Virus record (IMG/VR): IMGVR_UViG_3300047552_000880
Span: 61,893 to 125,892 of that record
Length of the DNA: 64,000 nt
Strand: one strand, 5' to 3'
From: a virus
Position numbers and translations under genes: made by a program. The notes under the pieces are model-generated. The model saw only the letters and a program-made list of their open reading frames with translations, did no database searches and was not told the origin of the DNA. This document shows, in pieces, positions 1 through 32,856 of this stretch. Position 1 is the stretch's first letter, and every line of letters starts with the position of its first letter.

Positions 1-2751
1 TTCCATGACACAATGGCAGCAGCCGCAATGAATGTATTGCGCGAGAATCCTAATATCTCCAAGGTTGATAAAGGTCTGCTGCACGAAATCACGGTTCAAA
101 TAGCAAAGGCAACTGCAAAGGGAAACGAACCAGTTGCTGCCATGATCGATAATCTGGTCAACGAACTCAAAAAGAGCGAACAGATAAAAGATGATGCGTT
201 TGAGAGACTTCTGAAATCAGAGAGAGAAAATACCAGACGTATTATTGATGCCCTCAATAAATGGAACGCAAAACAAGGTTATGGAACCGACAAGGAATCT
301 ATCAAAGATTCTATGCGCGAAGTCATTGAGAAGATCGAGAACTCCGAAGACAAGAAAGAACTTGCTAAGGAGTTCAAGGAATTCCATCGAGAGTTTATTG
401 CAATCGTTGATACATTAGAGGCAGAGGCTCTAAAGAGTTCACATCATCTTAGTACAATAGAGCAACATACCAAAGAATTAAAATCAATTGACAAGGTTCT
501 TCATACAATTGATGAAGGCGAACATCAGCTTGTTAATCAAGAGCATTCCGATTCAACTGTCAAAGAATCCTATACTTCCGAGACAGAAAAAACTTCTGAT
601 TCTGAGACAGAAAAAATTTCTGTTGAAAGTTCGACCGATACGCAAAAAACTAATAAAGTCGAAGCAAAGCAGTCTTCTGATACCAATGTACTAAAAGAAA
701 CTGTTGATCAGAGTTCAAAGACAGACGCGAAATCTGAAAATAAAACAAATACCACTGGACAGAATACACCTGAGACAAAGAAAGCAGTAACTGCCAAAGA
801 AGCATTTGCCTCTGGTGTTAAACGTCATGCAGAAGATTATAACCCATATTATAGTCAGGGTATGACACATGACGTAAAAAGAATGGTAGGCGCGGGCGTT
901 GCTAACGTTCTTATTACCAAATTAGCGCAGACAGGTAAGTTTGATAAGAACGGAAATGAAATTAAGCCGAAGGAACCTGAAGTCGATTCCGATGGTAATC
1001 CGATTATAAAGAAACCTTCATTCAAGGAAATGTTTGTTCAACAGGCGCAGATGCATGCTGAGAACTATAATCCTTATTTTAGTCGAGGTATCGTCGGTGA
1101 TGTGATGCACATCGGTGGTATGGCTCTGCGTGGCGCTGTCATTCATAAAATATCTGAACTGTTCCATAAAAAGACTGTCGAGAAGAATACAGAACAGAAA
1201 GACTCGCCTGAATCTTCGATTGAGCCGAAACAGCAATCTGATGTATCCGAGTTAAAAACAGCAACAGAAACCGTTTCAAAGAACACGGCAAATAATGTTG
1301 TGAATTCTTCTATTGAGAAGAAAGAATCTTCTACTGATCAAATGGTCAATATTTTGACCAAAAAATCTGATGAAATAACAACTGCACCAAGTGTTGTTAT
1401 GGGCAAACCTTTAACCAAGGCAGCTATCAGAAAACAGGAAAAAGAAAAGAATCGGGTCAACTTCACTAAAGTCAAAAAGGCAAGAGAAGCCGCGATTGCT
1501 GATCCTACACCTGTTATCAATACGCCAGTTGAATCAAAGAAGATCGAACAGAAGATAACAGATTCTACAACAGAAAAGCTGTCTGATGTAGCAACTAAAT
1601 CAAATAACGTTGAATCAAAGAATACAACAAGTTTACTGGAAAAGGTAAGCGTAAAGGCATCTGAATCAAATAATGTTTCTAACGTTGAATCAAAGAATAC
1701 TAATTCATCACAAGTAAAAACATTATATGATGTAAATAAAACTTCTACTGATTCTCTGTCTGATGTAGCAACTAAATCAAATAACGTTGAATCAAAGAAT
1801 ACAAATAAAACTTCTACTGATTCTCTGTCTGATGTAGCAACTAAATCAAATAACGTTGAATCAAAGAATACAACAAGTTTACTTTCAAAACTCAGCCAAA
1901 ATACATCTAATGTAGCCAGTAATGTTTTTGGTGCGCTGAAAGAAAAATACGATCAACTAACTTCTCGTAAAGAAAATAAAACTTCTACCAACGAATCTCT
2001 AAGAGATACTGTTATCAATTTGCGCGGAAAGACTATTGTCAATTTCATGGGTAAATTGAAACAAGATCGCAAACAGTTGGAAGCAGTAGGAGAAGTAACA
2101 AAGAAAGAGTCAGATGACAAGAAATCTTCTTTGCTGGATACGGCAAAGAATTTAGTCCTAGATAAGATCGGAAGCGTAACGAATTTGGTCAAAGGCGCTG
2201 CGCCTGCTCTTGGTGGTATTGCTAGTGCTGCTGCACCGGTTCTAGGAGTCACTGCTGCCGCTGCTGGTGGCTATATGCTTGGCGACAAAATAATCAGACC
2301 TACACTGGATTCTTTATCAGAAAAAGTAACTGGTAAAAAAGGACAAACCCTTGGTGGCGCTATATATGATTTTTTCAATAAAGACGAGAACGCAAAAATA
2401 GAGGCGATGCTTAATGGTGATTCAAAAGAATTATCATCCAAGTCGTCAACCGTCACTAGCAAACAGTCCGATGCAGCTAAAGTGCTCGAATCGATGAAAA
2501 CGACAAGTGCAACGACCCTCAGAGAAGCATCCGAGTTCAGAGACACGCAAAAAGAAAAACTAGAAACCAATAAACTCAATGAAATTGCTAAAAACACTGC
2601 ACAGAGCGTAGTGATAAATAATAGAACCAATAATGTAGGTGGTGGGAATGGTGCGCCAAATCAATTAGCACCAAGACCAATTATACGCAACCCGGATAGT
2701 ACGTTCGAGAAAATGCAAATGAAGGATTATTGGGGTCGTTTTGCATTTTAA
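1..2751 (+). CDS. Large low-complexity virion-associated protein, 5' end probably off the window
   Basis: The frame is open from the window edge to a TAA at 2749. The first ATG (position 13) has no ribosome-binding site, so the gene probably starts upstream; from that ATG there are 912 residues. The first 165 or so residues look helical and charged. Long Ser/Thr/Lys/Glu-rich linkers follow, interrupted by two related blocks near residues 271 and 346 (AEDYNPYYSQG and AENYNPYFSRG). An Ala/Gly-rich hydrophobic stretch lies near 727-756 and the tail is Asn/Gly/Pro-rich. I do not recognise the family. Its length, low complexity, and position just before membrane and neck genes suggest a virion, tail or baseplate protein, but this is inference. 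Confidence 0.5.
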   Translation, partial: FHDTMAAAAMNVLRENPNISKVDKGLLHEITVQIAKATAKGNEPVAAMIDNLVNELKKSEQIKDDAFERLLKSERENTRRIIDALNKWNAKQGYGTDKESIKDSMREVIEKIENSEDKKELAKEFKEFHREFIAIVDTLEAEALKSSHHLSTIEQHTKELKSIDKVLHTIDEGEHQLVNQEHSDSTVKESYTSETEKTSDSETEKISVESSTDTQKTNKVEAKQSSDTNVLKETVDQSSKTDAKSENKTNTTGQNTPETKKAVTAKEAFASGVKRHAEDYNPYYSQGMTHDVKRMVGAGVANVLITKLAQTGKFDKNGNEIKPKEPEVDSDGNPIIKKPSFKEMFVQQAQMHAENYNPYFSRGIVGDVMHIGGMALRGAVIHKISELFHKKTVEKNTEQKDSPESSIEPKQQSDVSELKTATETVSKNTANNVVNSSIEKKESSTDQMVNILTKKSDEITTAPSVVMGKPLTKAAIRKQEKEKNRVNFTKVKKAREAAIADPTPVINTPVESKKIEQKITDSTTEKLSDVATKSNNVESKNTTSLLEKVSVKASESNNVSNVESKNTNSSQVKTLYDVNKTSTDSLSDVATKSNNVESKNTNKTSTDSLSDVATKSNNVESKNTTSLLSKLSQNTSNVASNVFGALKEKYDQLTSRKENKTSTNESLRDTVINLRGKTIVNFMGKLKQDRKQLEAVGEVTKKESDDKKSSLLDTAKNLVLDKIGSVTNLVKGAAPALGGIASAAAPVLGVTAAAAGGYMLGDKIIRPTLDSLSEKVTGKKGQTLGGAIYDFFNKDENAKIEAMLNGDSKELSSKSSTVTSKQSDAAKVLESMKTTSATTLREASEFRDTQKEKLETNKLNEIAKNTAQSVVINNRTNNVGGGNGAPNQLAPRPIIRNPDSTFEKMQMKDYWGRFAF
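1734..1871 (+). repeat. 69-bp in-frame tandem repeat, two copies
   Basis: Two adjacent copies of a 69-base unit (1734-1802 and 1803-1871) encode 23 residues each, including SLSDVATKSNNVESKNT. A third partial copy lies at about 1572-1637. The unit is a multiple of three, so copy-number change would keep the reading frame. Confidence 0.85.
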
Positions 2752-18712: not shown

Positions 18713-19067
18713 AACGATAATTAAAGCTGATCCAAGAGAAGTCATTGTTAAATGGGTCGGAAGTGGTACAGATACACTTACCCTTGCCTCTCTTGTTAGT
18801 ACAGGTCAGACATTGACAGGAACCGTTGTACCTACAGTGGATATCCTAGCTGTTAGTACAAGCATCAGTGCTGCCGGTGAATGCACCATTACTCGTAACG
18901 GGCAGGATGTTCTGAAGGTTCATGATAATTACGAATTCCAGACAGATGGAATTATCACTGCTGTATTAAAAGAAAACTCTAGTCATGACATTGCTGTGAA
19001 TCTTGCTGCTGCCGGTACTCTGATCATGAGACTGCGTAAGACACAAGGCTATAGTTTAGGCGAATAA
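18699..19067 (+). CDS. Small virion structural protein
   Basis: 122 residues, beta-rich, with the pattern ECTITRNGQDVLKVHDNYEF in the middle and LRKTQGYSLGE at the end. I recall proteins of this pattern (a V-x-RNG-x-x-V-L stretch and a C-terminal LRK-x-x-GY) between genes 20 and 21 of aquatic T4-like phages, where they are annotated as structural. It overlaps gene 21 by one base. Confidence 0.6.
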   Translation: MALNKTIIKADPREVIVKWVGSGTDTLTLASLVSTGQTLTGTVVPTVDILAVSTSISAAGECTITRNGQDVLKVHDNYEFQTDGIITAVLKENSSHDIAVNLAAAGTLIMRLRKTQGYSLGE

Positions 19068-20845
19068 TGAAATTCATTACAGAAACATTCAATGATCCAC
19101 TGAGTCTCTTGCTTGAAGCCGATGAGACTGGTAAGAAATTCTTACATATTCAAGGACCATTTGCTGTTGCGGAACAGAAGAATAAGAACGGTCGTATCTA
19201 TCCAAAGCACGTTATGGAAAGTGCGGTAGACAGATATACCAACGATTATATTTCTCCTAGAAAAGCATTGGGGGAAATGAACCACCCTTGTTTCAAACCC
19301 GGAGCGAAGGTTTTTGTTTACAAAAAAGGTCTTATTAACATAGAAGATGTTAGTAAGGGAGATTATGTATATGGCACGACAAAGGAAGGTATTAGTAAAC
19401 TTTCCCTAGTCATCGACACGACAGAAACGCTGTTTTCAGGGGAATTGTATAATTTTGATTCTAGAGCGTTTAAAGCAACAGTCACTCCATATCATAGATT
19501 CTATTTGAAAAATAGAAATGGCGAGTTCTCGGTTGTCACCGCAAATGACATTTTATCCGATTTTGAATCTGGTAGTAGAAAGTTATCGCATTCTTATATC
19601 CCAAGAACACTTGAAAATTGGCAGGGAGACGAAGAAGAATATATCGAATTATTTCCAACAAGAGAAAGAAAAAATACTTATAATAAATCTTCTCTTGTGA
19701 TGAAATTTAAAGATTTCTGTGCTTTCATGGGTATATATCTTTCAGAGGGTAATATAGATTATTACACGAGGAAGGACGATTCGAGAACTTATGGTGAAAT
19801 AACAATTACACAAAATATAGGAACGAACCTCGATCTAATAATAGATTTGGTTTCTAAACTTGGTGTAGATTCTACGAATATTAGATTGAAAAGAAACGGA
19901 AAAAGTACGGGGGTCGTAATTTCTGACAATCGTTTAGCCGATTATCTTTCTCAGTTCGGAGACTGTTATACAAAATTTGTACCAGATATAATACTGAACG
20001 CATCAAAGGAAAATATTAAAGAATTTCTTGATTGGTATCAGTTAGGCGATGGTTCCAGTGTAACTATAAACCAAAAAGGAAAAGATTACACCAGAAATGA
20101 TGTATTCACAGTTTCCGAAAAACTAGCAGACGGTCTAATCGAATGTATTATAAAATTGGGGTTTAGTACAACAAAGAGAGTACAACTTTCAAATGAAGAT
20201 TATATGTTTGCCGGTAGAATTATAAAATGCGAGTCAAAATCTCCTTTGTTTAGAATGACCATTGGTAAAGGCGTTGGAAAATATGTTGACGAAAGATTTA
20301 CTAAAATAAATAAAGAACAATATACAGGAAATGTATACTGTCTTGTAACAGAGACAGACAATTTTATGGTTGAACAAAACGGAACTGTATTTCTTAGTGG
20401 TAATTGCAGACTTAACATTGATTACGAAAGAGCCACACATCTTATCACAGAAATGAAACAGGATGGTAATGTGTGGATCGGTAAAGCTAAAGTTCTCAAG
20501 ACCCCTATGGGTAAGGTTCTTGAAGGATTGTTGGAATCTGGTGTTGCTGTAGGTGTTTCTACTCGCGGTGCCGGTTCTATCACAGAGTCGAATGGCGCTA
20601 AAATGGTAGGAGATGATTTTTTCATGACTTCCGTTGATGTTGTTTCAGACCCATCTGGTCCCGGATGTGTTGTTAATTCTATCATGGAAGGCAGAGAATT
20701 CGATCTAGATGGGTTCGGCAATGCAATAGTCGAAGATTTAGCTGCAATCGCAAAAAAAGAATATGACAAAAAGCGATTGACAGAGCAAAGAAAAGTTGAA
20801 TTGTTTAACCAATTCATTAAAAGTGTCCAAATTGGGCGCAAATAA
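19067..20845 (+). CDS. 21: Prohead protease gp21, interrupted by an intein
   Basis: 592 residues as encoded; removing the 372-residue intein (residues 75-446) leaves 220, close to T4 gp21 (212). Gp21 is the serine protease that cleaves the scaffold and the N-termini of head proteins during maturation. The exteins have the conserved pattern KNKNGRIYP, then GEMNHP with catalytic His73, and after the intein GVSTRGAGS with the catalytic Ser region and a conserved DVVSDPSGPG. The intein begins two residues after the catalytic His, so no active protease exists before splicing. Confidence 0.93.
   Translation: MKFITETFNDPLSLLLEADETGKKFLHIQGPFAVAEQKNKNGRIYPKHVMESAVDRYTNDYISPRKALGEMNHPCFKPGAKVFVYKKGLINIEDVSKGDYVYGTTKEGISKLSLVIDTTETLFSGELYNFDSRAFKATVTPYHRFYLKNRNGEFSVVTANDILSDFESGSRKLSHSYIPRTLENWQGDEEEYIELFPTRERKNTYNKSSLVMKFKDFCAFMGIYLSEGNIDYYTRKDDSRTYGEITITQNIGTNLDLIIDLVSKLGVDSTNIRLKRNGKSTGVVISDNRLADYLSQFGDCYTKFVPDIILNASKENIKEFLDWYQLGDGSSVTINQKGKDYTRNDVFTVSEKLADGLIECIIKLGFSTTKRVQLSNEDYMFAGRIIKCESKSPLFRMTIGKGVGKYVDERFTKINKEQYTGNVYCLVTETDNFMVEQNGTVFLSGNCRLNIDYERATHLITEMKQDGNVWIGKAKVLKTPMGKVLEGLLESGVAVGVSTRGAGSITESNGAKMVGDDFFMTSVDVVSDPSGPGCVVNSIMEGREFDLDGFGNAIVEDLAAIAKKEYDKKRLTEQRKVELFNQFIKSVQIGRK
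19289..20404 (+). mobile_element. Intein in gp21 with LAGLIDADG-type endonuclease domain
   Basis: 372 residues, from Cys (codon 19289) to Asn (codon 20402), followed by extein Cys (20405). Splicing blocks seen: N-terminal CFKPGAKVFVYKKGLINIED with a DYVYG turn; the block-B TPYHRFY; block F with VYCLVTETDNFMVEQNG; and the C-terminal SGN|C, where the usual His before Asn is Gly. In between, the segments FMGIYLSEGNID and FLDWYQLGDGSS look like a degenerate pair of LAGLIDADG motifs. Splicing competence and endonuclease activity are inferred. Confidence 0.9.
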
Positions 20846-21835: not shown

Positions 21836-23137
21836 ATGAAAACTGTACAACAACTCTTGGAAAAATGGGCACCCGTTCTGGATGCAGAAGGCGTTCCTAC
21901 CATTGCTAACCGTCATCGTCGCGAAGTGACTGCTGTTCTGTTGGAAAACACAGAAAACGACATGAGCGAGCGTCGTCAACTGAACGAAGCTGCTCCTGTT
22001 ACTCAAACTCAAGGCTATCCTACCGATGGTTCCGGTTTGGCTAAATTCGATCCAGTGTTGATCAGCATGGTTCGCCGTTCTGCTCCACAGATGATTGCTT
22101 ATGACGTTTGCGGCGTTCAGCCACTGCGTCAACCTACTGGTCTGGTGTTTGCTCTGCAAGCTCGTTATGGCAACCAATCTGGTGCCGAAGCTCTGTTCGG
22201 TGAAGCTAACTCCGGTTTCGGCGGCACTGGTACTCATGCTGGCACTGATCCTACTGCTGACTTCGTTGACCAAGACGCAGGTACTGCTGGCGACCAATTC
22301 GGTACAGTGACAACTGGCACCGGTATGTCAACAGCAACTGCTGAAAGTTTGGGCGGTGGTGTTAATGCTTTCGGTGAAATGTCTTTCACTGTTGCTCAGA
22401 TGACCGTTTCTGCTAAGAGCCGTGCTCTGCGTGCTGGTTACTCTGTTGAATTCGCTCAGGATATCAAGAACCTGCATGGTCTGGATGCTGATGCTGAGTT
22501 GTCTAGCATTCTGTCAACAGAATTGCTGGCAGAAGTGAACCGCGAAGTTCTGCGTACAATCTACTCTGGCGCTAAAGTTGGTGCTCAAGACGCTACCAAA
22601 GCTGGTGTGTTTGACCTGTTGACTGACAGCGATGGTCGTTGGTTGGCAGAGCGTCACAAAGGTCTGTTGTTCCAGATCGAGCGTGAAGCTAACCGTATTG
22701 CTCAGACAACTCGTTTGGGTAAAGGTAACATCCTGATTTGTTCTTCTGACGTTGCTTCTGCTTTGGCTCTGGCTGGTGTGTTGGATTATGCTCCTGCTCT
22801 GGATGCAGCTAACAGCATCAACGTTGATGAGTCTAGCGCAACTTTCGCTGGTGTTCTGAACAAGAAGATCAAAGTATATGTTGACCCATATGCTGGCGCT
22901 GCTGGTACACAAAACCAATTCTTCTGCGTTGGTTACAAAGGTGACAGCGCATGGAAAGCCGGTTTGTTCTATTGCCCATATGTTCCTCTGCAACTGGTTC
23001 GTACAACTGATCCAGCTACAATGACCCCAACAATGGCTTACCGGATGCGGTACGGTATCGCCCGTCACCCTCTGTTCCAAGGTGCCGGTCGTACCAATGA
23101 GTTCTATCGCATTGCGGCAGTTCGTAACGTTTTGTAA
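21836..23137 (+). CDS. 23: Major capsid protein gp23
   Basis: 433 residues; T4 gp23 has 521. Conserved stretches include KFDPVLISMVRRSAPQMIAYDVCGVQP, here cited by its ends KFDPVLISMVRR and YDVCGVQPLRQPTG, ALQARYG, the QMTVSAKSRALRAGYSVE region and the C-terminal YRMRYGIARHPL. A gp21-type cleavage site (L-x-E before a small residue) is seen at QLNE51|A52, which would leave a mature protein of 382 residues. Base composition is richer in G and C at third positions than the neighbours, as expected of a highly expressed gene. AAGGA lies before the ATG. Confidence 0.96.
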   Translation: MKTVQQLLEKWAPVLDAEGVPTIANRHRREVTAVLLENTENDMSERRQLNEAAPVTQTQGYPTDGSGLAKFDPVLISMVRRSAPQMIAYDVCGVQPLRQPTGLVFALQARYGNQSGAEALFGEANSGFGGTGTHAGTDPTADFVDQDAGTAGDQFGTVTTGTGMSTATAESLGGGVNAFGEMSFTVAQMTVSAKSRALRAGYSVEFAQDIKNLHGLDADAELSSILSTELLAEVNREVLRTIYSGAKVGAQDATKAGVFDLLTDSDGRWLAERHKGLLFQIEREANRIAQTTRLGKGNILICSSDVASALALAGVLDYAPALDAANSINVDESSATFAGVLNKKIKVYVDPYAGAAGTQNQFFCVGYKGDSAWKAGLFYCPYVPLQLVRTTDPATMTPTMAYRMRYGIARHPLFQGAGRTNEFYRIAAVRNVL

Positions 23138-23152
23138 AATACAAAACTTAAC

Positions 23153-23177
23153 AAAAGGGCACTTCGGTGCCCTTTTT
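23153..23177 (+). terminator. Bidirectional rho-independent terminator after gene 23
   Basis: A 10-bp stem AAAAGGGCAC / GTGCCCTTTT with a TTCG tetraloop and a T-run on both sides. It ends the capsid transcript rightward and the endonuclease transcript leftward. Confidence 0.92.
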
Positions 23178-24817
23178 CATTTCTTTATCCCATAAACTTT
23201 GTTTCCGAAGTCATAAATCTTTGAATACCCCAATTGTACCATAATATCTTCTGTTTTCATTGAAGAAAATTCAGGGTATTTTTCAATAAGTTTCCAGCGC
23301 TGAAACGTCATTCTGGAGTAACGCTTGCCGCCCTTATACCAACTGAACCCTTGCTCTGTTTGTTTTAGTTCAGTGAACCCCATATTTTCATATAGTTTTC
23401 CTGTTCCCCACCGAAGATCACAATAAGAAATAATAGAGTCTGGTTTAGCGGATGACATAAAATGTTTTAGCAGTTTAGATGCACCGCCGATAACATTCGT
23501 ATCGTTCAATGAGCAAAATCGGAGCAATTCATACTGGTACTCTTTATTGAATCTAGACAAACCAAATGTCATTACAGCAACGAGTTCACCTGAATGTATT
23601 AGACCATATCTATGTTTTGATTGACACCAGCCCTGTATGTGATTTGTTTCAATAAATTCTCTACACTCAGTTTCTGTTAATTCAATGACAGAACATTTTC
23701 TTGCATGAATCTTTTTTTCTGTGATACCAAATATAGAACGAAGTCTTGAATAAACAATGTCTTCATTTTCGTCATCAAAGATTTTAATCAATCTGATACC
23801 AATTGAATCGCACATAACTTTCTTGTGGTAATCGTCTTTATCTCGATGGAAGTAAAGACCATCATATTCAATCGCAATATTTTTCTCTGGAACAACTATA
23901 TCCAACTCATATGGAGCAATAAGTGTTCTGTCGTTTACCAAACAATTGAAACCGGCGTTCTGTAACATATCAACGATTCTTTTCTGTGGAACCGATCTGA
24001 TGTTGCATTTAGGACAGAATAATTCTTTTTTACTGAGAATGCTAGCCGAAAATTCAGTTGAACAGCAATTACATTTCCAGTTATATTTCTGATATCGAAT
24101 ATCCGATTCAATATACTTTTCAACTGTATCAAGACATTTTATGTTGCATGTAGTTTCAAGTAATGAAACCTTTTCTTTAAACCAAGGTATCGCAACATTC
24201 TGGTTATAGGTATCATTCAGTTTTCTTGACCCGAGCCTTTGTTGACGAATATTGTCTCTGTATTCTAAATTTGCATCTTTACAATCAACTGAACAGAAAT
24301 CAGCAATACTTTTACCATAAGGAGTTTGACTGACATTGTGAACAGGAATGATATCACCACACTCTTTACATTTCCGAATCAATTCGGAGCCATATTTTTC
24401 TATCTGAAGTAATGTCTTGATATCATTGAAATCGTGTTTCTCTTTAAGAGAGTCAACCGTTGCTTTTGACAGAAACTTATCTACCTTGCTCCATGAAAGA
24501 TTACCATTCTGATCATATAGAATAGAAAAATCTTCCAATATCGGTAAAGAAGAATCTTTTGTAGCAGAATACTCGTATTTACATTTCAATGAACAAGTTG
24601 ATCCAAAAGACCCTTTCTTGAAATTGAGTCGGTCGAATACATCACCACATACCTTACATGTAGGAATCTCACCATGAATAACACCGGCTATCAGAGTCAT
24701 TGCAGATAGCCCCTTGCGAACACCAAGGTAGGATTCAACCATTTCTCTATCTTCTGAAAAGGAAGATAACACATTGCTATTCAAGCCGCCCTGTTTGTTC
24801 AAATACTTTTCTAACAT
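23177..24817 (-). CDS. Free-standing EDxHD (Vsr-like) homing endonuclease
   Basis: 546 residues from the ATG at 24817, which has GGGG five bases upstream; an in-frame ATG at 24841 lies before the predicted transcription start. Four Cys pairs in the N-terminal half (CKVCGDVF, CKECGDI, CNCCS, CPKC and matching partners) suggest tandem zinc-ribbon DNA-binding modules. Near residues 305-345 the order APYELDIVVPEKNIAIEYDG, then LYFHRD, then KKVMCDSIGIRLIKIFDDE matches the Vsr/EDxHD nuclease core known from phage homing endonucleases such as I-Bth0305I. A C-terminal acyltransferase-like segment (about 370-500) follows. It is the only leftward protein gene in the window. Confidence 0.82.
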   Translation of the reverse strand: MLEKYLNKQGGLNSNVLSSFSEDREMVESYLGVRKGLSAMTLIAGVIHGEIPTCKVCGDVFDRLNFKKGSFGSTCSLKCKYEYSATKDSSLPILEDFSILYDQNGNLSWSKVDKFLSKATVDSLKEKHDFNDIKTLLQIEKYGSELIRKCKECGDIIPVHNVSQTPYGKSIADFCSVDCKDANLEYRDNIRQQRLGSRKLNDTYNQNVAIPWFKEKVSLLETTCNIKCLDTVEKYIESDIRYQKYNWKCNCCSTEFSASILSKKELFCPKCNIRSVPQKRIVDMLQNAGFNCLVNDRTLIAPYELDIVVPEKNIAIEYDGLYFHRDKDDYHKKVMCDSIGIRLIKIFDDENEDIVYSRLRSIFGITEKKIHARKCSVIELTETECREFIETNHIQGWCQSKHRYGLIHSGELVAVMTFGLSRFNKEYQYELLRFCSLNDTNVIGGASKLLKHFMSSAKPDSIISYCDLRWGTGKLYENMGFTELKQTEQGFSWYKGGKRYSRMTFQRWKLIEKYPEFSSMKTEDIMVQLGYSKIYDFGNKVYGIKK

Positions 24818-24822
24818 AAATA
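24816..24822 (+). promoter_or_regulatory. Possible late promoter for the gene at 24850
   Basis: ATAAATA, 28 bases before the ATG at 24850. A promoter is needed here because the terminator at 23153 and the leftward gene separate this gene from the capsid transcript. It overlaps the start region of the leftward endonuclease. Confidence 0.45.
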
Positions 24823-24842
24823 CCCCAACAAAATAATTCATA

Positions 24843-24850: not shown

Positions 24851-25053
24851 TGGAATCAAGAACACATCAATTGGATAACACAAAACTCTCGGGTAACATC
24901 TTTGAAAGCATTCTAGCTGCTTCTCATGATTGCTATATGAGTCGAAGAAGGGAAAACAGAAACATAGAACTCGGGGCAGATGCACCAAGAGGAAAAGAAT
25001 CTGCTTTCATTGGTGGCTGTGTAACGAGTCTTCTGAAGGTACAAAATGGCTGA
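24850..25053 (+). CDS. Small protein with faint RNA polymerase omega-like pattern
   Basis: 67 residues. The segment GNIFESILAASHDCYMSRRR resembles the first helix of bacterial omega subunits (NRF(D/E)LVLxAxxRAR), and the product has about the length of omega. The C-terminal part (DAPRGKESAFIGGCVTSLLK) does not show the usual omega ending. The similarity is weak and could be chance. It overlaps the next gene by 8 bases. Confidence 0.5.
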   Translation: MESRTHQLDNTKLSGNIFESILAASHDCYMSRRRENRNIELGADAPRGKESAFIGGCVTSLLKVQNG

Positions 25054-25528
25054 TGCTGGTTTTAACCATCTACAGACAAATGCATTCACGTTTACTTTAC
25101 AGAGGATGCAAGCAACTACCTTTAGAATAACTTCAGCCGAGGTGCCATCAATTACTGTTCCTCCACCAAGTACAGGAACACAGGGAGCAACACAATATCA
25201 TCCCGGTAGTTTCACTGAGTTTGATGAATTGTCTCTGAGATTTATTGTTGATGAAGACCTTCAGAATTACGAAGAAATATATCATTGGATAACACAACAG
25301 AGATATGCTATTGGCACTGCATATCAGCCAAAGTCAGATGCAGAGAAATTATTAGTGAGTGATGGGTTTCTAACGACTCTGACTAATAAGAGCAATCCAA
25401 ATAGAACAATCTATTTTAAGGATATGTTTCCTATTGCATTAGGTAGTCTTGCATTCAATGTTCAAGAGACACCAGAACCATTGACATGTTGGGTAACATT
25501 TAGATTCAGTTACTTTGAGTTGAGGTGA
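25046..25528 (+). CDS. Tail-tube-like or baseplate structural protein
   Basis: 160 residues. It begins MADAGFNHLQTNAFTFTLQR and contains SAEVPSITVPPPSTGTQG, a beta-rich region, and FIVDEDLQNYEEIYHWITQQ. This order (Pro-rich strand, then VDEDL followed by a WI helix) is known to me from structural proteins of T4-like phages related to the tail-tube fold, but I cannot name the T4 counterpart. AAGG precedes the ATG. It ends at the edge of the gene-free region. Confidence 0.6.
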   Translation: MADAGFNHLQTNAFTFTLQRMQATTFRITSAEVPSITVPPPSTGTQGATQYHPGSFTEFDELSLRFIVDEDLQNYEEIYHWITQQRYAIGTAYQPKSDAEKLLVSDGFLTTLTNKSNPNRTIYFKDMFPIALGSLAFNVQETPEPLTCWVTFRFSYFELR

Positions 25529-25534
25529 TCATCA

Positions 25535-26388
25535 TTACAGGTACTCTGTACTCATAAGGATTCATTAGACTCTGTTTGGGTAAACCAAACCATAGTGTGC
25601 TCCGCACATCGCTACGCGATCATCCTTTATTTTTCTTTTTTCTTTTCGCGACTCCCTCCGGTCATACAGCGGTTGAGAAAAACAAAGTTACCCCGTTTCC
25701 GGGGGTAAGACGATGTTTCTCCCAACCACCGTATGATTTAAATCAGCATAGCTGATCATACATCGGCGTCGAATGAACTTAGTTTGATTTACAACCCCAT
25801 TCCTATCTCAGAATGTTTAGGTAGCGCGGTGATTAAACGCTTTACGTAGTTACCTCTATCACTGTGGGTACTGACAAGAAATCAAACGTCTTCCGGGTTA
25901 CTCAGTGTTCTACAGAACAAAATTCACTCCGGTTGTCAATACCGTGGCACGCCCGCAGGTGCCTCTGCCCACCCTATTTCAGATCATAGTGAGCTTACCC
26001 TACTCTTTCTTTCACCACCCGTTATCTACGATAAACTGAATTCGTGTTTTTCGGGAGGAACCATATCCTCTTGTGGTCTACTCGATTAGATGTAGTCAAT
26101 CCATTTAGCTATGTGGTCAACCCATAGCCTAAGTCATCAATGCTTCGTTACGCTGCCATTGACACCAGCTACAGACAGTTTAAGGAGTAGATTGCGGCTC
26201 CATCAACAGAACAGTAGTTTTAAGTGGTACTCGTCACTGATAAATAAAATGCAGTTTAGTGAGTATGCGGCTCAACAGATGGTACAGCAGAACAGTAGTT
26301 TTAAGTGGTACTCGTCACTAACTTGGATATTTATGTTTTCGATGAACTGGTATTTTAACGTGGTACTCGGCACGAACAGATGCTATTT
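25535..26388 (-). ncRNA. Candidate large structured non-coding RNA, read leftward
   Basis: About 0.85 kb with stops in all frames and dense stem-loops. On the minus strand it is purine-rich, with A-rich linkers (25622-25650) and a CCCCG-GAAA-CGGGG hairpin (GNRA loop, 25690-25706). Other stems: 25574-25590, 25595-25609, 25608-25620, 25671-25727 (GGTT/GAGAAA paired with TTTCTC/AACC), 25731-25761, 25906-25919, 25946-25963, 26022-26034, 26055-26070, 26109-26127. Long-range pairs: 25782-25790 with 25879-25887, and 26091-26100 with 26158-26173. A consensus promoter precedes it at 26395-26422. I cannot assign a family. Large phage RNAs such as GOLLD and ROOL are comparable in size. The 3' end is uncertain. 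Confidence 0.6.
26176..26374 (-). repeat. Direct repeats with conserved hairpin at the RNA's 5' end
   Basis: Two imperfect copies of a 63-68-base unit (26176-26238 and 26252-26319) share an exact 32-base core at 26207-26238 and 26288-26319, and a third, degenerate core lies at 26344-26374. Read leftward, each contains a 4-bp hairpin with loop CGAGTAC: AGTG/CACT in the first two and CGTG/CACG in the third, a compensated base pair. GAGTAC occurs twice more at the other end of the region (about 25537-25552). Confidence 0.75.
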
Positions 26389-26394
26389 ATCAAC

Positions 26395-26422
26395 ACTATA
26401 ACACAGAAAACGTTTGAGTCAA
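26395..26422 (-). promoter_or_regulatory. Leftward sigma70-type promoter for the structured RNA
   Basis: Read leftward: -35 TTGACT (26417-26422), 16-base spacer, -10 TATAGT (26395-26400) with the extension TGTGT, matching the TGTGATATAAT elements of this genome at 9 of 11 positions. Predicted start near 26388. It points away from uvsY. Confidence 0.7.
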
Positions 26423-26457
26423 CACATTGGTTGACACATTTTGAAAATAAATTATTT

Positions 26458-26898
26458 ATGCTTGATCATGAACAGCTTTTGACCGAATGGGAAACCGATT
26501 GTAAGGTTCCCTCTGATGCTCTGTTAGAGCGCATGTACAGACACCCCATCCTTCATAGCAAGTATCTTGGCTACCTACAGTCTTATAAGATCAGTAGTCG
26601 TAAGGTCACACTTCGCTATCAGAAACTCCGGCTCCTGAAGACCCGTTACTATAACGGAGAACTGTCAGAAGAAGAACTAATTGAGAACAATCTTAAACAG
26701 TACCTGTATAAGCGACCTTTGAAGTCGGAAATGGAATCTCTACTGGATGCCGATGCTGATCTTCAGAAACTTCAGGAACAGATTCTGTATATCGAGACTT
26801 TGATTCAGAGTACCGAGGCTATCATGAAAGAGTTGACTAACCAACACTATCTGTTCAAAAATATCATTGAACAGACCAAATATCTTACAGGGAATTGA
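26458..26898 (+). CDS. uvsY: UvsY recombination mediator
   Basis: 146 residues from the ATG at 26458; T4 UvsY has 137. UvsY loads the UvsX recombinase onto gp32-coated single-stranded DNA. The helical pattern with HSKYLGYLQSYKISSRKVTL, KLRLLKTRYYNGEL, RPLKSEMESLLDADADLQKL and a final ALKNI-type helix (LFKNIIEQ) matches the T4 family. An in-frame ATG at 26380 would add 26 residues but overlaps the leftward RNA promoter region and lacks a site. The chosen start also lacks a clear ribosome-binding site, so the exact start is uncertain. Confidence 0.85.
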   Translation: MLDHEQLLTEWETDCKVPSDALLERMYRHPILHSKYLGYLQSYKISSRKVTLRYQKLRLLKTRYYNGELSEEELIENNLKQYLYKRPLKSEMESLLDADADLQKLQEQILYIETLIQSTEAIMKELTNQHYLFKNIIEQTKYLTGN

Positions 26899-26899
26899 A

Positions 26900-27172
26900 A
26901 TGTTTAGAGGCGCAGTAACACTTGACAAAAATACTGTTATCAATTTTTTGAACTCACATGGAGTCGATCTTGTTCAATGGGTAGCGGATAAACTGGATAA
27001 CCCAAAGATCGTTTACATGCACAGTAACATTTTTGTGGTCGGCGAATCAACAGAATTTTCTGTTGCCAAATCTAGTATGGAATCTTACCCTCTTTACTCA
27101 CTGAGATTTTTTGGTGTTGATTTACTTGACTACGCTTTTGAGGAACTGAGATTTCAATCAGTGGTTCTATGA
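26900..27172 (+). CDS. Hypothetical protein between uvsY and uvsW
   Basis: 90 residues from the ATG at 26900, one base after the uvsY stop; it overlaps uvsW by ATGA. The product appears alpha/beta, with IVYMHSNIFVVGES in the middle. Wedged between two recombination genes, it may be translated with them. No family recognised. Confidence 0.65.
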   Translation: MFRGAVTLDKNTVINFLNSHGVDLVQWVADKLDNPKIVYMHSNIFVVGESTEFSVAKSSMESYPLYSLRFFGVDLLDYAFEELRFQSVVL

Positions 27173-28653
27173 CAGACATTATTATTCGTAAGGTCAATGA
27201 GACATATCTTGAAGTCGTATCTGACATGGATACGGCTTTCGTTATCTCTGATAGTTATAGTTTCAGACCAGATGGGTATCGATTCATGCCAGAGTATAAG
27301 GCAGGTCGATGGGATGGGTATATCAGAATGTTCAATATGGGAACCCGCAGAATGTTATTGGGTCTGAAAAATGATCTGATTCAATTCTGTGAACAAAGAA
27401 ATTACTCATATTCCCTTGAAAACTTCGACGATCAGTCACTGAATCTCTCTGACAGTGATGTAGATGCCTTTATTTCGCGTTTAAACGCCTTTGGAGGCGA
27501 TAAACCGTTACAGGTAAGGGGATACCAGCGGTATGCCATTAAAACGGCTCTAAACGCCTCTAGATCGATTTTAAAGGCAACTACTGGCGCAGGTAAATCT
27601 TTTATTCAATACGCGCTATCAAGATACCTTTCCGAAGAACTTGGACTAAAGGTTCTGATTCTTGTTCCAACAGTGGCGCTTACTACTCAGATGAAGAATG
27701 ATTTTGCTGATTATTCTTCTCGGTCTGATTGGTCTGCCGAAAAGAATGTTCATACAATCAGTGCTGGTCTTGATAAAGACACAGATAAACCAATTGTGGT
27801 CAGCACATTCCAATCTATCTATAAGATGCCAGTGGAATGGTATGAGCAGTTTGGGGCAATTATTGGCGATGAAGGTCATAAGATAAAGTCTTCTACAATA
27901 TCTTCGATCTTCATGAATTCAACTAAATGTAGATTCAAGATCGCCTGCACAGGCACATTGCACGATATGAAGTGTCACCTGAAGCAGATGATTGGGTTGA
28001 CAGGCGATGTAGTTGAAGTTGCTGATGCAAAGGATTTGATTGCCGAGGGTCAGTTGGTTCCATTGAAAGTATCTGGAATTATATTGACCTATGACAAAGA
28101 AGTTGCAAAAGCAATGAAAAAAGCTGACTATGAAACGGAGATAAAATACATTGTCACGAACACCAAGCGGAACAAGTTCATTGCGAATCTGGCGCTGAAA
28201 TGTAAGGGAACTACTTTACTTCTATATAGGTTCATTGATCTTCAGGGTGATCCGCTGTATAAGATGTTATGTGAAAGAACAGATAGAACTGTTCACTTCA
28301 TTGATGCCGATGTTGATAGAGAGACAAGAGAAGAAATCCGTCAGAGCGCAAATAAATCTGATGACGATATTATTGTTGGTAGCTACGGATGTATGAGCAC
28401 TGGCATCAATCTTCCTGCGATTGAAAACATCATTTTCTGTCATCCAGTGAAGTCCAAGATCACGGTTCTTCAGAGCATTGGTAGGGGTCTGCGGCTGAAG
28501 GAAGGTAAGACACACTGTAATCTCTATGACATTACCGATAATATGACGTATAATAGAAAGCAGAACACAACTTTCTCGCACTTCAGTGAGCGTGTTGGTA
28601 TGTACGGCTCAGAAGGGCACTCTGTTAAACTTATTACGATTCCATTTGAATGA
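27169..28653 (+). CDS. uvsW: UvsW superfamily-2 helicase
   Basis: 494 residues; T4 UvsW has about 500. UvsW unwinds R-loops and branched recombination intermediates and switches T4 from origin to recombination-dependent replication. Motif I is ATTGAGKS (137-144); motif II is DEGH (234-237), where T4-type helicases more often show DE(C/A)H. Also seen are ACTGTL (motif III), SYGCMSTGINLP and QSIGRGLRLKEGK (motif VI). The N-terminal 110 residues contain the double-stranded-DNA-binding pattern RPDGYRFMPEYKAGRWDGYI. Confidence 0.93.
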   Translation: MTDIIIRKVNETYLEVVSDMDTAFVISDSYSFRPDGYRFMPEYKAGRWDGYIRMFNMGTRRMLLGLKNDLIQFCEQRNYSYSLENFDDQSLNLSDSDVDAFISRLNAFGGDKPLQVRGYQRYAIKTALNASRSILKATTGAGKSFIQYALSRYLSEELGLKVLILVPTVALTTQMKNDFADYSSRSDWSAEKNVHTISAGLDKDTDKPIVVSTFQSIYKMPVEWYEQFGAIIGDEGHKIKSSTISSIFMNSTKCRFKIACTGTLHDMKCHLKQMIGLTGDVVEVADAKDLIAEGQLVPLKVSGIILTYDKEVAKAMKKADYETEIKYIVTNTKRNKFIANLALKCKGTTLLLYRFIDLQGDPLYKMLCERTDRTVHFIDADVDRETREEIRQSANKSDDDIIVGSYGCMSTGINLPAIENIIFCHPVKSKITVLQSIGRGLRLKEGKTHCNLYDITDNMTYNRKQNTTFSHFSERVGMYGSEGHSVKLITIPFE

Positions 28654-29069: not shown

Positions 29070-30079
29070 CAGCACTTTATATAGAAATCTCCTACTCAAA
29101 ACAAGTAGGGGCTGCTCTTGAGCGTTTTCGTGTAAAACGTGAATCTCCTTTTCTGGCAGCGGCTCGATGCCCAATCTGTGGCGACTCAGCTAAAAGTAAG
29201 TCAAAGACTCGTTTCATCTTCTATGAGCGAGAAAGTCATATCAATGTGATGTGTCATAATTGTGGCTACAGTAGCTCTGTTGTCACATTTCTGAAGAATC
29301 ATTACAACAGTCTCTATAACGAATATATCATTGAGAAATATAGAGTAACCGGAAATGATAGAGAAAAAGAAACATTTAAAATACCTGTCTCTGCGCCTGT
29401 CATTAAACCAAATTCATTAGATTTACCTCTGGTTAAAAATCTTCCGGTAACTCATATTGCGAGACAATATGTTGATTCAAGAAACTTGCCTGAATATGGG
29501 TTTCAATTTGCAGAAGACTTTTATGGGTTCTGTCAGCAATATAATAGTTCTATACCCGAGACTAAAAACAAAGAACCTAGACTCATAATTCCTTTCTTTG
29601 ATCGGAAAGGAAACGTATTTGCATTTCAGGGGCGCGATCTAACAGGAAAGAGCAAGCAAAAATATATTACCATCACGATTGATGACAAGACACCAAAAAT
29701 ATTTGGTATAGATCGTCTTGATGTTAAGCAGCCTGTTATCATTGTCGAGGGTCCAATTGATTCGTTGTTTCTTCCGAATTGCATTGCATCCGTGAATGCT
29801 TCTTTGGTTGCCACTGCCAAAAAGTTGACCGGAGTAATAAATAAAACCTCCACCACACTAGTCTATGATAATGAACCGAGAAATAAAATTATCGTAGAGC
29901 AGTATCAGAAGGCTATTGATGCCGGATATCCAATAGTCATATGGAGTAAAGAGTGCGAGGGGCTTAAAGATGTTAATGACATGATTCTTGCTGGAATCGA
30001 TGTTAAGAAGGTGATCAAAAAGAACACTTTTAGTGGTATAATGGCGAAGATAAAATTTTTGGAGTGGAAAAAGGTATGA
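29066..30079 (+). CDS. 61: DNA primase gp61
   Basis: 337 residues; T4 gp61 has 342. It makes RNA primers on the lagging strand with helicase gp41. An N-terminal zinc ribbon is visible (RCPICGDSAKSKSKTR, then VMCHNCGYSS). The TOPRIM-like core has VEGPIDSLFLPN and a following Asp-containing strand (TTLVYDNEPRN). The C-terminal GIMAKIKFLEWKKV overlaps the nrdA start. A TATAAT-like hexamer near 30038 might add an internal promoter for nrdA. Confidence 0.9.
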   Translation: MTALYIEISYSKQVGAALERFRVKRESPFLAAARCPICGDSAKSKSKTRFIFYERESHINVMCHNCGYSSSVVTFLKNHYNSLYNEYIIEKYRVTGNDREKETFKIPVSAPVIKPNSLDLPLVKNLPVTHIARQYVDSRNLPEYGFQFAEDFYGFCQQYNSSIPETKNKEPRLIIPFFDRKGNVFAFQGRDLTGKSKQKYITITIDDKTPKIFGIDRLDVKQPVIIVEGPIDSLFLPNCIASVNASLVATAKKLTGVINKTSTTLVYDNEPRNKIIVEQYQKAIDAGYPIVIWSKECEGLKDVNDMILAGIDVKKVIKKNTFSGIMAKIKFLEWKKV

Positions 30080-32856
30080 CAGATATTGTGATCGACACAT
30101 CACGTGATGAATTGTTTGATGAAATTTCCTTGGCGCGACTCAAGGACTCGTATATGATCGAAGGAGAAACAACTCCGCAAGAGCGTTATGCGTTTGTTTC
30201 AAAACAGTTTGGGTCAAACCCAGAGCACGCACAGCGATTATATGACTATGCGTCAAAACATTGGTTTGGATATTCAACCCCTATTCTTTCGTTTGGTCGA
30301 AATAAAGGTGGTTTACCCATCAGTTGTTTCTTGGTATCTGTTCCTGATACTAAAGCTGGATTAGTTGATTCTTTGTCCGAAACAAATTGGCTTTCGATGC
30401 TCGGTGGCGGCGTTGGTGTTTATTTTGCGACTCGTGGCGCAGACGAAAAATCTGTTGGGGTGATTCCTCATTTGAAAGTATATGATGATTCTTGCCTTGC
30501 GTTCAAACAGGGTTCGACCCGCCGTGGTTCATATGCTGCATATCTTGATATCAGTCATCCAGATATTATGGATTTTCTTGATATGCGCAAAGAAACCGGT
30601 GATCAGCGCCGCCGTTGTTTGAATCTCCACAATGCAGTGAATATTCCTGATTCTTTCATGAAATTGGTTGAGGGTCGAATGCTTGATCCTAAATTTGATG
30701 ATACATGGGAATTGAAAGACCCTGTGTCCGGTAAAGTACACGAAAAGGTCAGTGCTTCGGAATTGTGGATTAAACTGCTTGATCTTCGTGCAGGAGTCGG
30801 TCGTGGTGAGCCTTATATTCTTTTCACTGACAATGTTAATAATCAGGTGAAACCTGTTTTGCGTGAACGTGGATATAAAGTCAATCAATCAAATCTTTGT
30901 GTTGCGCCAGAAACTCAAATTTTGACAGAAAACGGATATGAAACAATATCTGATCTGGAAAACGAAACTGTATCTGTGTGGAATGGACAGGAATTTTCTA
31001 ATGTTATTGTTCGCAAGACCGGAGAAAATCAGAAACTGATCCGTGTTATCACAGATTCTGGGTTTGAACTTGAATGCACCCCATATCATAAGTTTTATGT
31101 CCATCAATATGTCAATGGCAAGAAAACTACTGTTGAAAAACGCGCTGGCGAATTGCTTCCCGGCGACAAGTTGATCAAGAGCGATTACCCTGTCATTGAG
31201 GGAACAGAGACTCTGGAATATGCCTATGACAACGGTTTTTATACAGCCGATGGTTGTCTTGAGGCTAGAGGTCAGCGCGTTTATCTCTATGGCGAGAAAC
31301 AAAAATTGAAACCATTCTTGTCGGATATCTATGGGAATTGGTGTGAGTCAAGTAACTGTGATCGTATAACTGCTACTACCAGAAAACTGAAGGACAAATA
31401 TTTTGTTCCTAATGGAGATTATACGATTAAATCTAAATTAGATTGGTTTGCTGGTTTGTGTGATGGTGATGGCACGGTTTGTCGGAACGGAGAATCTCAA
31501 TCTATTCAAGTTTGTTCTGTTCGTAAAGAATTCTTACAACAGGTTCAATTGATGCTGCAAACACTTGGTGTGTATTCAAAGGTAACAAAATCAGTTGATG
31601 CAGGCTTTCGCCAGCTTCCAAAGAATGACGGTTCAGGAGAAAAAGGTGACTATTTCTGTCAGACAACGTATCGTCTGATGATTGGTCAACGTTATATTGA
31701 AAAACTCATTTCTCTTGGTTTTAAGACACATCGATTGGTTCTGACCAATCATACTGGCAATCGTGAGTGTACCCATTTCATTAAGGTTGAAGCCATCATC
31801 GATGATGGTCGTTATGATGATACATATTGTTTCACCGAGCCAAAGCGACATATGGGCATGTTCAATGGTATGTTGACAGGTCAGTGCAACGAAATCATGT
31901 TGCATACCGATGCACAGAATACCGCTGTTTGCTGTTTGTCTTCGATCAACTTGGATCGTTGGGATGAATACAAAGACAATTATCAGTTTTTCCTTGATCT
32001 GATGGAAATGCTTGACAATGTGTTACAATACTTCATTGACAACGCACCTGACACAATTTCTCGGGCAAAATATTCTGCGATTCGAGAGCGTTCTGTCGGT
32101 CTTGGTGTGATGGGTTATCATTCATACTTGCAACAAAAAGGCGTTGCATTTGACAGTGCAGTTGCAAAGGCATATAACAAAAAGATTTTCAAAACATTCA
32201 AGGAAATGCTTGATCGTGCTAACATTGATCTTGGTTCTTCTCGCGGTTCTCCTGCTCTTTTAGAAGGAACTGGATTGAGATTCGCGCATTGTAGTGCATT
32301 GGCACCAACAGCATCGAATGCATTGATTTGCGGTAATGTGTCGCCTTCTATTGAGCCTTGGCATGCGAATGCTTTCCGTCAAGATACTTTGTCAGGTACT
32401 TTCATTCAGAAGAATAAGTATCTGAACCAGATTATCATTGAACTGGAAGCCGCAGGAAAATGTGATGCAGATGATGTGTGGAAGCAGATTGTTGCCGCAG
32501 ATGGTTCTATTCAAAATATTGATGTATTTGATGATCATACGAAGGAAGTCTTTAAGACAGCACCGGAGATTGAACAATTGATGTTAGTTGAACAGTTGAC
32601 AGATCGACAGCCATATATTGATCAAGGACAGTCTTTTAACATTTTTATTCGTCCAGACATTTCTATTCCTAAACTCCATGCGATACACTTCAACGTATGG
32701 AAAAAAGGTGGAAAGGGAATGTATTATGTAAGGTCAGAGAAATTGGCTAATGCAGAGAAAGTGAATGCAAAGGTAGTTCGAGTAAAATTGGAAGATGAAA
32801 TAGATATGAAGGCAGTTGCCAATGGTGATTTGGAATGTTTGGTGTGTAGTGGATAG
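30076..32856 (+). CDS. nrdA: Ribonucleotide reductase alpha subunit NrdA, interrupted by an intein
   Basis: 926 residues from the ATG at 30076 (AAAAGG upstream); removal of the 329-residue intein leaves 597. NrdA reduces ribonucleoside diphosphates to deoxy forms. Seen: PISCFLVSVPD (first redox Cys), GGGVGVYFATRG, QGSTRRGSYAAYLD, the active-site segment QSNL|CNEI (thiyl-radical Cys and Glu) interrupted by the intein, VGLGVMGYHSYLQQKG, and a C-terminal C921-L-V-C924 pair. No ATP cone is present, and only about 80 residues precede the first redox Cys, so the N-terminus is shorter than in E. coli NrdA (761 residues). Confidence 0.93.
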   Translation: MTDIVIDTSRDELFDEISLARLKDSYMIEGETTPQERYAFVSKQFGSNPEHAQRLYDYASKHWFGYSTPILSFGRNKGGLPISCFLVSVPDTKAGLVDSLSETNWLSMLGGGVGVYFATRGADEKSVGVIPHLKVYDDSCLAFKQGSTRRGSYAAYLDISHPDIMDFLDMRKETGDQRRRCLNLHNAVNIPDSFMKLVEGRMLDPKFDDTWELKDPVSGKVHEKVSASELWIKLLDLRAGVGRGEPYILFTDNVNNQVKPVLRERGYKVNQSNLCVAPETQILTENGYETISDLENETVSVWNGQEFSNVIVRKTGENQKLIRVITDSGFELECTPYHKFYVHQYVNGKKTTVEKRAGELLPGDKLIKSDYPVIEGTETLEYAYDNGFYTADGCLEARGQRVYLYGEKQKLKPFLSDIYGNWCESSNCDRITATTRKLKDKYFVPNGDYTIKSKLDWFAGLCDGDGTVCRNGESQSIQVCSVRKEFLQQVQLMLQTLGVYSKVTKSVDAGFRQLPKNDGSGEKGDYFCQTTYRLMIGQRYIEKLISLGFKTHRLVLTNHTGNRECTHFIKVEAIIDDGRYDDTYCFTEPKRHMGMFNGMLTGQCNEIMLHTDAQNTAVCCLSSINLDRWDEYKDNYQFFLDLMEMLDNVLQYFIDNAPDTISRAKYSAIRERSVGLGVMGYHSYLQQKGVAFDSAVAKAYNKKIFKTFKEMLDRANIDLGSSRGSPALLEGTGLRFAHCSALAPTASNALICGNVSPSIEPWHANAFRQDTLSGTFIQKNKYLNQIIIELEAAGKCDADDVWKQIVAADGSIQNIDVFDDHTKEVFKTAPEIEQLMLVEQLTDRQPYIDQGQSFNIFIRPDISIPKLHAIHFNVWKKGGKGMYYVRSEKLANAEKVNAKVVRVKLEDEIDMKAVANGDLECLVCSG
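30898..31884 (+). mobile_element. Intein in NrdA with DOD endonuclease domain and C-terminal Gln
   Basis: 329 residues, from Cys (codon 30898) to Gln (codon 31882), followed by extein Cys (31885). Splicing blocks: CVAPETQILTENGYETISDL, ECTPYHKFYVHQ, and DDTYCFTEPKRHMGMFNGML before TGQ|C. LAGLIDADG-like segments are YDNGFYTADGC and DWFAGLCDGDGTV. The C-terminal residue is Gln rather than Asn, a known minority class that includes some RNR inteins. The +1 residue is the catalytic radical Cys of NrdA. Confidence 0.92.

Follow-up and report, generated by a model that had tools for sequence, protein, structure and literature searches.

The gap between the tail tube and uvsY genes of a T4-like phage probably holds a minus-strand noncoding RNA gene, which is the best overall explanation of a gene-less interval (positions 25529–26457) with a leftward promoter, a strand-specific helix and no protein or Rfam match. 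The RNA would be early and trans-acting, and its gene the second of this kind in the phage. The interval lies in a stretch of 64,000 nt that was analysed as a whole (hereafter, the window), itself part of the 125,892-base virus record G000; a 178-kb contig, IMGVR_UViG_3300042988_001121 (G002), is 100% identical to this record over the 3 kb compared. The left border is the tail tube protein gene (25046–25528, plus strand; PHROG 45, E = 1e-27), homologues of which were found in 1036 phage records, and the right border is uvsY (26458–26898, plus strand; Pfam PF11056, E = 2e-19), which is divergent from the candidate RNA. Other T4-like neighbours are the major capsid gene gp23 (21836–23137) and UvsW (27169–28653), and a free-standing homing endonuclease gene (23177–24841, minus strand; PHROG 3339, E = 6e-94) adjoins the RNA slot between the capsid and tail genes. 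By-eye reading of the translations suggests an intein in each of two other genes, a prohead-protease-like one (19067–20845) and that for the large ribonucleotide reductase (30064–32856).

The true start of uvsY was fixed at 26458 by eight UvsY homologues, so the gap measures 929 nt, larger than the roughly 0.85 kb given in the first-pass annotation, whose reading that it contains no credible gene was borne out by ORF, PHROG and tblastn checks. No minus-strand ORF of ≥40 aa was found inside the interval, the longest plus-strand ORF (96 aa, ending just inside the interval) had no PHROG or tblastn match, and the plus-strand ORFs of the interval matched no protein family. Taking ORFs of ≥100 aa as genes and comparing the gaps between them throughout the 178 kb of G002, we found that the interval is the only gap of >800 nt with a single inner ORF of ≥45 aa, and by this criterion no other gap of the contig is as clearly gene-less. 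A codon-usage gene caller, also tried for finding gaps, was dropped due to too many false gaps. A stretch of 877 nt lacking any ORF of ≥45 aa lies between divergent genes of a related phage (G003:55338–56214) and has many palindromes; its sequence has no significant similarity to that of the interval.

Leftward transcription of the interval, as predicted from its sequence signals, is well supported. The promoter proposed earlier is present on the minus strand at 26422–26395, points left, and reads TTGACT-16-TATAGT with an extended -10 (TGTGTTATAGT, TG extension; 10/12 matches); by score on its own it ranks only 23rd among phage-type sites. The composite pattern TTGAC-N11..13-TGTGTTANANT has exactly two sites in the genome, one before the interval and one before a copy of a new RNA family in the gp55 slot (G000:21973–22001; see below), and the reversed pattern, used as the control, has 0 sites. 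The TGTGTTANANT string alone has a chance expectation of ~1 per 64 kb, and G002 has 14 minus-strand sites and one plus-strand site, 13 of the former within a leftward block at 88–150 kb and many just before gene starts. We regard TGTGTTANANT as a predicted promoter-like element of this phage. A longer promoter-like consensus, ATAATCTACACATAA-TTTTCCTGTGTTACAATAGA (also TGTGATACAAT), often stands just before leftward genes on the minus strand of the same 88–150 kb, and some TGTGTTANANT sites sit inside it.

Direct strand evidence comes from a long minus-strand hairpin (25662–25736) with 23 uninterrupted pairs, where the longest helix among 150 shuffles has 17. Positions 25736–25714 pair with 25684–25662, and the helix is capped by the CCCCG-GAAA-CGGGG stem that had been noticed before and that we located at 25704–25691. 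The four variable pairs are all G-U on the minus strand; on the plus strand the same positions are A-C mismatches that break the helix, and the longest plus-strand helix in the interval has 13 pairs. A helix of ≥23 pairs was found at a single further site of the genome, in a stretch with a perfect 21-bp inverted repeat and a 9-nt loop (G002:102560–102610, that is, L115:2560–2610). The purine content of the minus strand (0.54), already remarked on in the first-pass annotation, is leftward-like and falls within the 0.51–0.54 of the nine sense strands of the new RNA family.

The claim that stems are unusually dense did not hold. Minus-strand folding energy was ordinary, both over the full length versus shuffles (z = -1.5) and for local folds limited to spans of at most 120 nt (111th among 192 genome windows), and the plus strand did slightly better (z = -3.7; rank 24 of 192). 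Folding energy was dropped as strand evidence, as it favours the plus strand although the longest helix is minus-only. The 5' part of the interval contains three copies of a 35-nt repeat, each with a hairpin whose loop holds a palindromic GUAC: AGUG-ACGAGUAC-CACU at 26304–26319 and 26223–26238, and, in the third, diverged copy, CGUG-CCGAGUAC-CACG at 26359–26374, with the stem changed on both sides. Two further hairpin copies have UGAG/CUCA or GGAG/CUCC stems; as the copies differ by AGUG/CACU to CGUG/CACG and by UGAG/CUCA to GGAG/CUCC, both repeat stems survive double changes. Matches in IMG/VR to the repeat hairpin GTGNCGAGTACCACNTNAAA were, besides the identical contig, confined to one conserved stretch in small contigs otherwise unlike the interval. 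At the left end no intrinsic terminator was found on the minus strand, and two small adjacent hairpins (25595–25620) beside a T-rich run on the plus strand (25624–25648) may terminate rightward tail-tube transcripts.

Searches with Rfam 15 on both strands detected only two tRNAs in the window at the gathering score (49275 and 50043) and no match inside the interval at E 10; the suggested comparison with GOLLD, ROOL and OLE, run via their Rfam models, showed that the interval matches none of the three. Searching phages and plasmids by blastn, we found only chance matches to the interval, and no relatives beyond identical contigs were found in anything searched. Comparing this region in related phages, as had been proposed, did show that the slot is used by a family of covarying RNAs; the interval itself fails the models of that family.

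The related phages were fetched as contigs with a capsid protein 69–77% identical. Most relatives have only 0–160 nt in the uvsY slot. L017 likewise lacks genes over about 1.05 kb from the tail tube gene to uvsY, and G001 (L101) has 640 gene-less nt before uvsY; a 99-nt block is common to these two contigs (E about 1e-7) when they are read on opposite strands. The strings AGTACGGCT..GATACGGAA and ATAAAAA(N)CTCGGYCGATAA led to L159, L172 and the phage's own genome at 149.5 kb of G002, and most of the 29 AGTACGGCT..GATACGGAA matches were rejected as chance, the real ones also containing CTCGGYCGATAA. The uvsY-slot RNAs of the family in L101, L172, L195, L198 and L199 are divergent from uvsY, and that of L017 is on the other strand; since transcription runs away from uvsY in five of the six copies, the RNAs are not leaders of that gene. 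The slot of L003 holds a leftward HNH gene, and that of L181 a leftward ORF whose HESVHQ motif is metallopeptidase-like (L181:2061–2603, minus strand), so the slot takes varied leftward cargo. Because this includes protein cargo, position alone is no proof of family membership.

The family (L117, L159, L017, L101, L140, L172, L195, L198 and L199) represents previously undescribed large folded RNAs of several T4-like phages, and its presence in the same slot of relatives bears out the earlier suggestion that this neighbourhood encodes large phage RNAs. It is absent from Rfam 15, searches of L017, L101, L159 and L117 at the gathering score and at E 10 giving nothing. In a five-member alignment, 30 of the 50 predicted pairs were changed on both sides, and paired cells reached 88.6%, versus 72.0% in shuffles and 33–42% in slid controls. 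The core consists of a CGACC..GGUCG helix around a GAAA-loop hairpin and a CACAG/CUGUG helix, then AUAAAAACUCGGUCGAUAA and AGUACGGCU..GAUACGGAA. Two hairpins make up the 5' domain, their loops joined by a 5-pair loop-loop pairing (GACAC/GUGUC, AGCAC/GUGCU, GGUAC/GUACC, UGUGC/GCACA, GGCAC/GUGCC or UGCAC/GUGCA); in the loop-loop pairing and second stem together, 100% of cells were paired and 8 of 9 pairs doubly changed, unmatched by 500 shuffles. In L199 the 5' loop-loop domain occurs twice in tandem (2192–2262 and 2313–2383, minus strand).

Covariance models were built for the core (R1 and R2) and the 5' domain (R3). Outside its training, R1 matched L140 in G001 (E = 8e-24), L195 (1e-30), L198 (4e-9) and L199 (5e-8), the E-values of these purpose-built models being rough; the last three are in the uvsY slot, and L140, L159 and the copy in the phage's own genome are in the gp55 slot. 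This own-genome copy (G000:21597–21765, that is, L117:9469–9637; minus strand, E = 1e-22) lies outside the window, with a gp2-like DNA end protector gene on one side and the gene of late sigma factor gp55 on the other, and was the one match in an R2 scan of the whole genome. It is arguably a stronger find than the interval. In 84,980 bacterial and archaeal genomes, a family string had seven matches, judged chance by context, and core-model scores were ≤22 bits.

The interval is family-like by position and promoter, not by sequence or structure. It shares with the family the slot, the divergent orientation and the purine bias: it adjoins uvsY and, from its position and promoter, would be transcribed away from it, as are the five divergent family copies. 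A promoter of its own stands immediately upstream, of the rare composite type common to the interval and the same-genome family copy. Slot, orientation and promoter make it possible, though rather unlikely, that the interval is a uvsY-slot paralogue of the new family, so far diverged as to be invisible to the models, a reading that would refine the best explanation and is not exclusive of it. With filters off, the best scores on the interval were 5.2 (R1) and 8.2 bits (R2), compared with 41–163 for members with R1, and 9.5 bits (R3) versus 54–72 for members. The weak matches converge on one place of the minus strand, 25626–25703 for the two core models in turn and 25630–25694 for the 5' domain, as such a paralogue might; against it, their E-values are 0.05–0.2 for only 1.2 kb, and they are gone in a search of the whole window. 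Also missing from the interval are the hallmark strings CUCGGUCGAUAA and GAUACGGAA and a loop-loop partner, the minus strand having six GUACC but no GGUAC. Because neither the core nor the 5'-domain models recognise it, we did not file the interval in the family; it is either a remote cousin of those RNAs or other cargo using this slot.

Given the leftward protein genes that relatives keep in this slot (the metallopeptidase-like ORF of L181 and the HNH gene of L003), the interval could be what is left of a decayed accessory gene with its promoter still in place. We consider this improbable, as the interval has neither a minus-strand ORF of the length searched for nor remnant homology in the tested plus-strand ORFs, and a minus-only helix of 23 pairs is not expected from decay. 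A mere plus-strand untranslated spacer, composed of a tail-tube terminator and a uvsY leader, would account for the T-rich run after two hairpins at 25595–25648 and for the slightly better folding of the plus strand versus shuffles, yet relatives do without the interval, its longest helix is minus-only and its strong promoter faces left, which leaves this reading more doubtful still. Possible in principle, though the least probable of these readings, is an ori(uvsY)-type replication origin, where an R-loop formed by the transcript would prime DNA synthesis. T4 oriF, or ori(uvsY), combines a promoter with a downstream unwinding element (PMC3016281), and the interval resembles it in its uvsY neighbourhood, its promoter and the RNA expected from it. 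Unlike in T4, the promoter is directed away from uvsY, relatives can dispense with the segment, and a second locus of the RNA family lies at gp55; moreover, the interval is locally G+C-richer and not easily unwound, and the GC-skew turns of the genome lie elsewhere, near 87 and 150 kb of G002.

For the noncoding RNA gene that we favour, host RNA polymerase would start early at the extended -10 promoter (26422–26395), and the transcript would run left from about 26388, away from uvsY and toward the 3' end of the tail-tube gene, ending somewhere between 25700 and 25530. The product would most likely be a structured RNA acting in trans, because no leftward gene is led by the interval. Promoter type, strand-specific helix, composition and the orientation in relatives uphold the leftward direction given by the first-pass annotation. 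Its description as a large structured RNA is plausible rather than proven for the interval, since the overall fold is not better than that of shuffles and no diverged homologue was found for a covariation test. The phage would have two RNA genes of this sort, counting the gp55-slot copy, a member of the covarying family. By analogy with known large phage RNAs, the product may be an abundant folded scaffold, RNA-only or RNA-protein, made during infection. More tentatively, we suggest that this group of T4-like phages has a two-locus system of large structured RNAs, at gp55 and at uvsY, with both loci under the same rare promoter type in the present phage. The interval would then be a second, unrelated-looking member and a large RNA class for which the searches gave no sequence relative.

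GOLLD and ROOL are abundant, structurally ornate RNAs of phages and prophages, often but not always near phage tRNA genes, with an RNA-only cage as their criterion; we know of no function for either. Like them, the candidate RNA and the new family are phage-encoded from gene-less loci and of the 0.6–0.9 kb size class, and the new family also has the many helices and loop-loop contact of these large phage RNAs (PMC12286853). Unlike them, they have no Rfam match on either strand, show other conserved strings and architecture, and come, in this analysis, from a single group of T4-like phages, and the interval is >22 kb from the window's only tRNAs. The virulent phage ICP1 makes an ~800-nt noncoding RNA, its most abundant transcript, from an ORF-less space of ~1 kb between gp139 and gp140 (PMC7567579). 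The interval is likewise an ORF-less space of about 1 kb; it has other neighbours, and its transcription is predicted from sequence, whereas that of the ICP1 RNA has been shown. The core model R2 had no match in 70 kb of ICP1 including the gp139–gp140 locus.

Its two recurrent addresses in T4-like phages, next to gp55 (late sigma factor) and uvsY (recombination mediator), make the new family a new and better-placed case for studying the function of large phage RNAs, and its covarying core and loop-loop pairing are ready for structure work. If the interval is indeed transcribed into an RNA, it would add another class of RNA to this phage.
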